From Halostagnicola sp. A-GB9-2 (lineage in GTDB: Archaea; Halobacteriota; Halobacteria; Halobacteriales; Natrialbaceae), in contig NZ_JASJOC010000004.1 of NCBI RefSeq assembly GCF_030068615.1, positions 248,001 to 312,000 on the forward strand: a stretch of DNA of 64,000 bases. The letters run 5' to 3'. Both the position numbers and the translations under genes were made by a program. Positions 28,492 to 29,944 of the stretch are shown here, piece by piece. The notes under the pieces were generated by a model, which did not search any database, was not told where the DNA came from, and saw nothing but the letters and a program-made list of their open reading frames with translations. Every line of letters starts with the position of its first letter. Position 1 is the first letter of the stretch.

Positions 28492-28872
28492 TCAGTAGTG
28501 CACCGTCTCGAGGCCAGCCACGGCGTCGAAGTCGGAATCCCGGGTGACGAGCGATGCACCGTATCTCCGACAGAGGCCGGCGATTAGAACGTCCCCGCTG
28601 TTGATGGGCTGGCCGCGGTCGACCAGTTCGGATTTAACCAGTGCCGCCTCGGCGGCCGCCCGATCGTCGAACTCGAGTGTGTCGACCCAGTCGAGACTCT
28701 GTTGTGCTTTTTCGATCGAGCTACCGGGGTAGCGGGCGGCACCTTCGTACACCTCGAACATCACGGTCGCTGGCGCGTAGTAGATCGGCGTGTCGTGGCT
28801 CTCGAGAAACGCCGCAGCGTCGTCAACCCCCTCGAGATAGTCGACGAGAAACGTCGCGTCGAGCGCTTTCAT
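28492..28872 (-). CDS. vapC: VapC-like PIN-domain toxin
   Basis: 126 residues, complete PIN fold. Acidic metal-binding residues are visible: Asp5 (KALDATFLVDYL), Glu40 (TVMFEVYEG), Asp94 (INSGDVLIAG) and Asp112 (VTRDSDFDAV). PIN toxins are RNases, often cutting tRNA or rRNA. It overlaps the antitoxin gene by four bases (ATGA), the standard vapBC order with antitoxin first. C-terminus VAGLETVHY is typical. Confidence 0.88.
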   Translation of the reverse strand: MKALDATFLVDYLEGVDDAAAFLESHDTPIYYAPATVMFEVYEGAARYPGSSIEKAQQSLDWVDTLEFDDRAAAEAALVKSELVDRGQPINSGDVLIAGLCRRYGASLVTRDSDFDAVAGLETVHY

Positions 28873-29108
28873 CGGCGGTTTTGAAGCCGCTCCTGTCGCT
28901 CGTCGAAGCCCTCGTTAACGTCTTCGCGGGCCTCGTCAACGGCCTCGCGGAACCCGTCTGCGTCGGCAAACGCGCCGAATCCTTTCATGTGGTCGCGCTC
29001 ACCGCCCGTTATCCGGTTGATCGTGTCCGTGAAGCTCTCATCCTCTCGCTTGTGCGCTTTCAGGTTTTTGTACGCCTCTTCCGTGATAGTCAGACTTTTC
29101 GTCCCCAT
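28869..29108 (-). CDS. vapB: VapB-like antitoxin
   Basis: 79 residues from the ATG at 29108; a frame a further 11 codons upstream crosses the operator and is not used. N-terminal MGTKSLTITEEAYKNLKAHK is a ribbon-helix-helix DNA-binding start seen in haloarchaeal antitoxins; the C-terminal part (DADGFREAVDEAREDVNEG) is an acidic helix expected to wrap the toxin. Upstream operator: perfect GTACAC-N4-GTGTAC at 29111-29126 and another half-site at 29144-29149. Four-base overlap with vapC. Confidence 0.83.
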   Translation of the reverse strand: MGTKSLTITEEAYKNLKAHKREDESFTDTINRITGGERDHMKGFGAFADADGFREAVDEAREDVNEGFDERQERLQNRR

Positions 29109-29110
29109 GT

Positions 29111-29126
29111 GTACACGTAGGTGTAC
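29111..29126. promoter_or_regulatory. Operator of the VapBC-like operon
   Basis: GTACAC, GTAG, GTGTAC: a perfect inverted repeat ending two bases upstream of the vapB ATG. A third GTGTAC half-site is at 29144-29149. A TATA-like CTAATAG on the minus strand (about 29131-29138) lies between, so VapB binding would occlude the promoter. Confidence 0.6.
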
Positions 29127-29185
29127 GTCTACTATTAGCAAAAGTGTACCGGACTCAGGTTCCTCGTTGCAGTAACGGAGAGTTT

Positions 29186-29426: not shown

Positions 29427-29609
29427 TTAGTCGGACTCGAGCAGGCCGGGGGCGACGTGACAGCCACAGGGCGTGGCGATGCCGATCGTGGGCTCTTTCA
29501 TCGTGACGAGTGCGACCGGGGTTCCGCAGGTGGGACACTCGACCAGAGACCTCGAATCGGATGTGGCGTCGTCCGATTCAATCTCGAGGTCGTCGCTCTC
29601 GTCGGTCAT
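29427..29609 (-). CDS. Small CPxCG-type zinc-finger protein
   Basis: 60 residues. After a 22-residue acidic start comes CPTCGTPVALVTMKEP and then CGCHVAPG, giving cysteines (and a His) for one zinc site. Very small zinc-finger proteins of this kind are abundant in haloarchaea, where some affect motility, biofilm or stress responses, but no role can be assigned here. Start at the ATG at 29609. Confidence 0.7.
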   Translation of the reverse strand: MTDESDDLEIESDDATSDSRSLVECPTCGTPVALVTMKEPTIGIATPCGCHVAPGLLESD

Positions 29610-29670
29610 AGCTTCCCTCCTGCAGTGATTGTGACTGGTGTCTGTACGTTATTCAGCCGTCGGGCGGGAT

Positions 29671-29680
29671 GTTTATATCC
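29671..29680 (+). promoter_or_regulatory. TATA box ahead of structured-RNA candidate
   Basis: GTTTATATCC, itself inside a small GGGAT/ATCCC inverted repeat (29667-29680). Predicted transcription start about 29700. Confidence 0.45.
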
Positions 29681-29699
29681 CGGTAGAATGAACGTAATC

Positions 29700-29796
29700 A
29701 TGGCTCCGAGCAGACCGCTTGGAAGCCACGCCTCGGGTGCTAGGACACCCGGGGCATTTCAACGCATGCCCCATCACTCGTTGAGGGTGACTTCCA
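29700..29796 (+). ncRNA. Candidate structured RNA with pseudoknot
   Basis: A TATA box lies about 27 bp upstream. The segment can form an outer stem (GGAAGCCAC at 29721-29729 with GTGACTTCC at 29787-29795, one mismatch), hairpin 1 (CGGGTG 29734-29739 with CACCCG 29746-29751), hairpin 2 (GGGCAT 29752-29757 with ATGCCC 29766-29771), and a loop-to-tail pairing (TCAACG 29759-29764 with CGTTGA 29779-29784). A 54-codon frame covers the same bases (29700-29864) but looks non-protein-like. Family not recognised. The rest of 29610-29992 shows only a 13-bp direct repeat near its right end. Confidence 0.5.
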
Positions 29797-29944
29797 TTCT
29801 GTTTGTTGACCTGATGAGACTTATATCTATCCGTCACAGCTCGGGAAAATCGCCATTTCTGTGACCGAATCCGTCCTCGAGGCACTACCTAATTCGTCGA
29901 CTCTCCGTCTCGAGACCGCGCTGTCTGGCAATTGTGGTCCGATC

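Follow-up and report, generated by a model that had tools for sequence, protein, structure and literature searches.

A minus-strand haloarchaeal RNA leader with two predicted mutually exclusive folds, probably a translational start-codon switch ahead of small zinc-ribbon genes

Within the 64,000-nucleotide stretch of Halostagnicola sp. A-GB9-2 DNA analyzed here (the window), the segment at 29700-29796 raises the question of whether a compact foldable sequence is a functional RNA and, if so, which strand encodes it and what it controls. An earlier note had read it as a plus-strand pseudoknotted RNA with its own TATA box. The elements of that reading are all present in the sequence: TTTATA lies at 29672-29677 on the plus strand, an outer stem joins GGAAGCCAC (29721-29729) to GTGACTTCC (29787-29795) with one C.A mismatch on the plus strand, two GC-rich hairpins occupy 29735-29750 and 29751-29772, and TCAACG (29759-29764) and CGTTGA (29779-29784) both exist as letters. 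The segment outperforms shuffled sequences in folding on either strand (z -3.7 on the plus strand and -4.1 on the minus strand, with 0 of 200 shuffles as good), and the fold is placed far above chance because ten further copies at 72-82% identity (11 close copies in all) occur in the window's own genome and the element recurs across haloarchaea. Conservation among the aligned own-genome copies extends past the reported segment on both sides. The core proposal of an undescribed structured RNA, possibly a riboregulator, is borne out by this recurrence and by compensatory change in a 92-sequence model-fitted alignment, whereas the strand, the TATA box, the pseudoknot, the IS605 connection and the claim that no protein is involved were not upheld.

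The orientation of the RNA can be read from the outer helix, P1, in which the 92 relatives contain 70 G-U cells and 4 C-A cells when read on the minus strand, a wobble count of 70 for that strand against 4 for the plus strand that had been proposed; the corresponding counts are uninformative for helices P4 and P1b. On the minus strand, a TATA-like box precedes P1 at -30 from GGAAG in 81 of 84 non-identical copies, compared with 0-1 in control windows. In the window this box is GATATAAG (29820-29827, minus strand), and its spacing predicts a transcription start at approximately 29797-29799, so that the 5' end of the transcript (29787-29799) would include the P1 5' strand. We assign the element to the minus strand because of the 70:4 ratio together with the near-invariant box. 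In the copies first inspected the neighbor is a small minus-strand protein gene that starts beside the element, and the RNA sits between the promoter and the start codon of a same-strand gene, with a conserved AUG and open reading frames downstream. The element is therefore, with little room for doubt, a structured leader on the minus strand and not a plus-strand RNA. The TTTATA previously taken for its promoter comes from the codons TAT AAA of the first downstream frame (ORF1), read as their reverse complement, and is found in only 25 of 84 copies. Six copies from other haloarchaeal families (L207, L211, L214, L226, L244 and L265) carry an inverted repeat between the TATA box and P1 (for example CCATTA..TAATGG and GGTATGCTATGTAGCAGAAGGT) that is absent from the main Natrialbaceae type and may serve as an operator or form an additional 5' hairpin.

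Read along the minus strand, the TATA box is followed by a three-way junction (P1, P3 and P2), then by a small hairpin, and finally by a start codon at 29701. The helices P1, P1b, P3, P2, P4 and P5 were evaluated with a model derived from 32 copies, to which 92 loci were re-aligned (alignment A5). The P1 5' strand (GGAAGUCAC, 29787-29795, minus) pairs with the P1 3' strand (GAG..GUGGCUUCC, 29721-29734, minus), 95.6% of the P1 pairs being kept and seven of nine showing double changes. P1b, which is also part of the minimum free energy fold, extends P1 through CUC (29783-29785, minus) and its partner GAG (29732-29734), with 79% of cells paired. P3 (GGGGCAU..GAAAUGCCCC, 29751-29772, minus) shows double changes at seven of seven pairs and carries a conserved unpaired GAAA in its loop, a GAAA-like motif being visible by eye in copies of all families. 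P2 (GGGUG..CACCC, 29735-29750, minus) has a variable loop, 99.8% of cells paired and double changes at three of five pairs. Over the whole of A5, 31 of 35 pairs display double changes (230 such cells) and 87.9% of cells are paired; none of 500 shuffles matched any of these measures, and slid controls reached 27-48% paired cells. Since the model shaped A5, this alignment is biased in favor of the structure. An unfitted MAFFT alignment limited to Natrialbaceae (A4) was compatible with the same helices, but only five of its pairs carry double changes, which on that measure is not above shuffles because its sequences are so alike. An alignment-free comparison of P1 in 53 diverged loci, which were chosen by a model that includes P1, gave a score of 25.0 for strands with their own partners and 18.5 with swapped partners (0 of 1000 swaps as high).

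The plus-strand pairing of TCAACG with CGTTGA, which had been proposed as a pseudoknot, was not adopted. The underlying complementarity between J1/3 and L3 scores 17 in the window and at least 13 in only 17 of 92 relatives, so that it is not a general feature; overall it lies slightly above swapped partners (10.8 compared with 10.1, 1 of 1000 swaps), an excess that kinship among the sequences could cause.

A further hairpin, P5 (CGGGAUAUAAACAUCCCG, 29665-29682, minus), lies about 20 nt into the coding sequence of ORF1 and carries the TTTATA on its plus strand. All six of its pairs show double changes in A5, one of them having passed from GC to AU in 32 sequences, and these compensatory changes alter the encoded amino acids. 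P5 could be regarded as a TATA-bearing DNA operator; this reading is the less favored, since P5 shows compensatory change, lies within ORF1 and persists in diverged copies that have no TATA, and we favor an RNA hairpin. In five copies (L018, L045, L048, L057 and L080) a P5 variant, CGAGACAAAAAGGTCTCG, precedes another type of zinc protein (CYRCG...CCPDC), and the P5 sequence and the downstream protein subtype appear to change together.

The statement that the element has no associated protein does not apply to the minus strand, on which the RNA is followed by ORF1 and a gene for a zinc ribbon. The GCCATG that follows P4 supplies the start codon of ORF1, a 31-codon leader frame (MITFILPGYKHPARRLNNVQTPVTITAGGKL, 29606-29701, minus) whose stop overlaps the start of ORF2. 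All 84 of the 84 copies keep the ORF1 frame open over 28 codons, compared with 26 and 13 copies for the other two frames, and among 92 copies the offset between the ORF1 stop and the ORF2 start is -1 (ATGA) in 47, -5 in 10 and -8 in 8. The first 18 codons of ORF1 have position entropies of 0.84, 0.89 and 0.97, with 27% synonymous changes and no clear codon periodicity. Protein-level constraint is disfavored because of this lack of periodicity, and the conserved N-terminus would be better explained by constraint on the RNA combined with an open frame. A Shine-Dalgarno-like GGAGG (29616-29620, minus) precedes ORF2 (29427-29609, minus), which starts within the ATGA of the ORF1 stop and encodes a 60-aa small protein of the CPxCG zinc-ribbon type with the pattern CPxCGxP..GP..PCGC. 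Against Pfam, ORF2 matched no family above the cut-off, a weak match to DUF7837 falling below it, and sequence-based structure comparison returned only weak, generic zinc ribbons. Further downstream on the same strand lie a PIN-domain-like toxin and an antitoxin-like gene (28492-28872 and 28869-29141, minus), the toxin-antitoxin cluster of the earlier note, which show no sign of membership in the leader unit.

Of 108 copies that could be scored, about 90 are followed by a gene for a small CxxC protein, and approximately one copy in six is without a recognizable zinc-ribbon gene at the expected place. In the window's genus a HalOD1-like domain usually precedes ORF2 or is fused to it: among four copies (L012, L013, L016 and L015) the HalOD1-like and zinc-ribbon parts are fused in some and form two overlapping or frame-shifted ORFs in others, and the window's own ORF2 consists of the zinc ribbon without the HalOD1-like part. 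One copy (L017, G000:C1:601759-601939) retains the leader together with an ORF1 that terminates in ATGA; its similarity stops directly after P5 and no zinc-ribbon gene follows, making it an orphaned or re-used leader. In the diverged families the conserved AUG is itself the start codon of the main gene, and these genes include PadR regulators, SWIM proteins, CxxC proteins, one HNH protein and proteins of no recognized kind. The downstream genes share no common metabolic pathway that points to a ligand.

The distribution of the leader is broad within haloarchaea. The window's genome contains 17 model matches at E <= 0.1 (the 11 close copies and six weaker ones), and BLAST found matches in 68 of 121 Natrialbaceae genomes and 21 of 29 genera, often with 6-16 or more copies per genome. 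Every named match in an exact-pattern scan was to Natrialbaceae. In two other haloarchaeal families a wider model recovered the leader at E <= 1e-4 from 52 of 119 and 58 of 116 genomes, one genus having up to 15-27 copies; single weak matches may be false because the E-values are rough. All 11 matching genomes in a phylum-wide draw came from the same order, with none seen outside it. Plasmid-borne copies are on record with the RNA left unannotated, and neither the exact-pattern scan of viral contigs (0 matches) nor phage records yielded the leader. One genus of family f3 (genomes G358, G367, G351, G257 and G343) has 11-27 matches per genome, and the copies inspected precede a different CxxC peptide of 45-48 aa (for example MKGITLRYCNPVVSSMTSTRCARCGQPVARPRAHATGCPSWRVGS); this is an independent expansion of the leader.

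What such a leader might do at its start codon is indicated by the P1 3' strand, for which the sequence offers two complementary partners, the P1 5' strand and the bases immediately upstream of the AUG. In the window the second partner is the P4 region with the pre-start sequence (29699-29720, minus), which includes GGAGCC directly before the AUG (29699-29707). Across the diverged loci, the P1 3' strand and the 12 nt before the AUG of the same locus scored 14.6, compared with 11.8 when partners were swapped (z 7.2, 0 of 1000 swaps as high), and this pairing was outside the search model. Control offsets of -30, -24, +24 and +36 showed no significant excess, and z values of 7.9 and 3.1 were obtained at +3 and +12, offsets that overlap the site or lie next to it. 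The competition for the P1 3' strand thus co-varies across diverged copies. Individual loci maintain it with different sequences, the second strand in each case directly preceding the AUG: GGCUUCC with GGAAGCC (L225), GGGUUC with GAACCC (L226), GGUCUU with AAGACC (L216) and AGGUUC with GAACCU (L251). The main Natrialbaceae type has a discontinuous version of this competing helix (GGCuuCC/GGuuGCC). When the P1 5' strand of the window was blocked, the predicted fold paired the AUG, at -53.5 kcal/mol compared with -61.3 kcal/mol for the unblocked sequence.

These pairings suggest that the leader is likely a translational start-codon switch with two exclusive folds. In fold A, GGAAGYC would pair with GRCUUCC to close P1 around the P3-P2 junction and leave the bases before the AUG free; this would be the on state, in which ORF1 is translated and, through stop-start coupling at the ATGA, ORF2 is translated in turn. 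In fold B, P1 would be open and its 3' strand would pair with the bases directly before the AUG, in Natrialbaceae taking in the AUG as well, so that initiation would be blocked. The strand, the promoter position, the three-way junction, P5, the leader position, the ORF1-ORF2 overlap and the co-varying competition come directly from the computations, whereas the switching itself, its direction, the coupling and the existence of a trigger are inferred. On this basis, the minus-strand leader probably acts in cis on translation of the ORF1-ORF2 zinc-ribbon operon through the two exclusive folds. The choice between A and B may be set by a signal at the junction; candidates are a small ligand, an ion and an RNA-binding protein, for which the encoded zinc ribbon is one possibility.

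Two proposals for this trigger are both compatible with the switch itself. The first, which we advance tentatively, is that the junction binds an RNA-binding protein, most simply the downstream zinc ribbon, which would autoregulate its own translation; the two folds would represent the states with and without protein, and binding could act to open or to shut the switch. Most downstream genes in Natrialbaceae and many elsewhere encode small CxxC or zinc-binding proteins, and paralogous leaders have spread together with paralogous proteins, both in favor of this proposal. Several diverged copies, however, precede PadR regulators or proteins without CxxC, and therefore one autoregulator per gene is not a general solution. 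The second proposal, which we consider somewhat unlikely, is a metabolite or ion riboswitch in which a common ligand, such as the metal ion that the zinc-ribbon genes might suggest, binds the P1-P3-P2 junction and the GAAA, a single aptamer thereby controlling many unrelated small genes. One architecture with a conserved unpaired GAAA does precede several gene types in several haloarchaeal families, and an aptamer-like P1 shares its 3' strand with the helix that would sequester the start codon. Yet few unpaired bases are conserved besides the GAAA, the P1 and P2 sequences differ among families more widely than is usual for one aptamer, and the downstream genes have no metabolic pathway in common.

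Explanations without a leader are highly improbable. A dispersed repeat or mobile-element end without RNA function (MITE-like, or the IS200/IS605 remnant suggested earlier) would account for the many, often widely separated copies per genome, but all helices show compensatory change, promoter and gene positions are fixed, diverged copies keep the structure, and conservation runs on into the genes instead of stopping at element ends; the family shows no tie to IS200/IS605 elements, contexts inspected by eye showing no systematic tnpB and a single tnpB-like fragment, which lies some 3.2 kb away from copy L016. A free-standing small RNA transcribed from TTTATA on the plus strand, which also folds well, is just as improbable given the P1 wobbles, the near-invariant TATA box and the conserved genes on the minus strand, and the loss of TTTATA from most copies (it is kept in the window and the 25 noted above) while compensatory change maintains P5 pairing.

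At the gathering score, neither the window nor 14 related loci matched any of 4227 Rfam families, the best match of the window in a lax search had an E-value of 3, and no description of the leader was found in the open-licence literature; this is apparently a real and undescribed cis-regulatory RNA family. It resembles translational riboswitches in being a cis-acting 5' leader with a junction helix whose 3' strand can instead hide the start, but that strand would pair with bases beside the AUG and not with an obvious Shine-Dalgarno sequence, and the leader is haloarchaeal, with up to 16-27 matches per genome and no Rfam match. Its presumed mode of action resembles that of a translational riboswitch or an autoregulatory leader, ligand binding being putative. 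The fluoride riboswitch is the only experimentally determined natural archaeal riboswitch (PMC8241225, 2021); it too is a structured 5' leader in an archaeon, whereas the leader described here has no Rfam match to crcB and other downstream genes. As in ribosomal-protein-type autoregulatory leaders, the structure lies ahead of small, possibly nucleic-acid-binding zinc proteins, although these are not ribosomal and their binding is putative. ORF2 is of the same CPxCG small-protein type as the C(P)XCG zinc-finger micro-proteins of Haloferax volcanii (PMC6562870, PMC11241148), from which it is set apart by the pattern CPxCGxP..GP..PCGC and its position downstream of both an RNA leader and a leader ORF. 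Structured leaders have been described as untypical in haloarchaea (PMC4983044).

In this family, strong compensatory change is combined with a high copy number per genome and with an alternative fold built into the start-codon region. It thereby offers immediate access to the regulation of leadered mRNAs by haloarchaea in molar salt, and a common point of control over CPxCG zinc micro-proteins, whose roles are for the most part not known. It is quite possible, though short of probable, that the family constitutes a new order-wide haloarchaeal riboswitch-like class, a start-codon switch placed before small zinc-ribbon and regulator genes and answering to a common cellular signal. If so, one junction RNA would be reused up to 16-27 times per genome and would drive a coupled unit of leader ORF and zinc ribbon.
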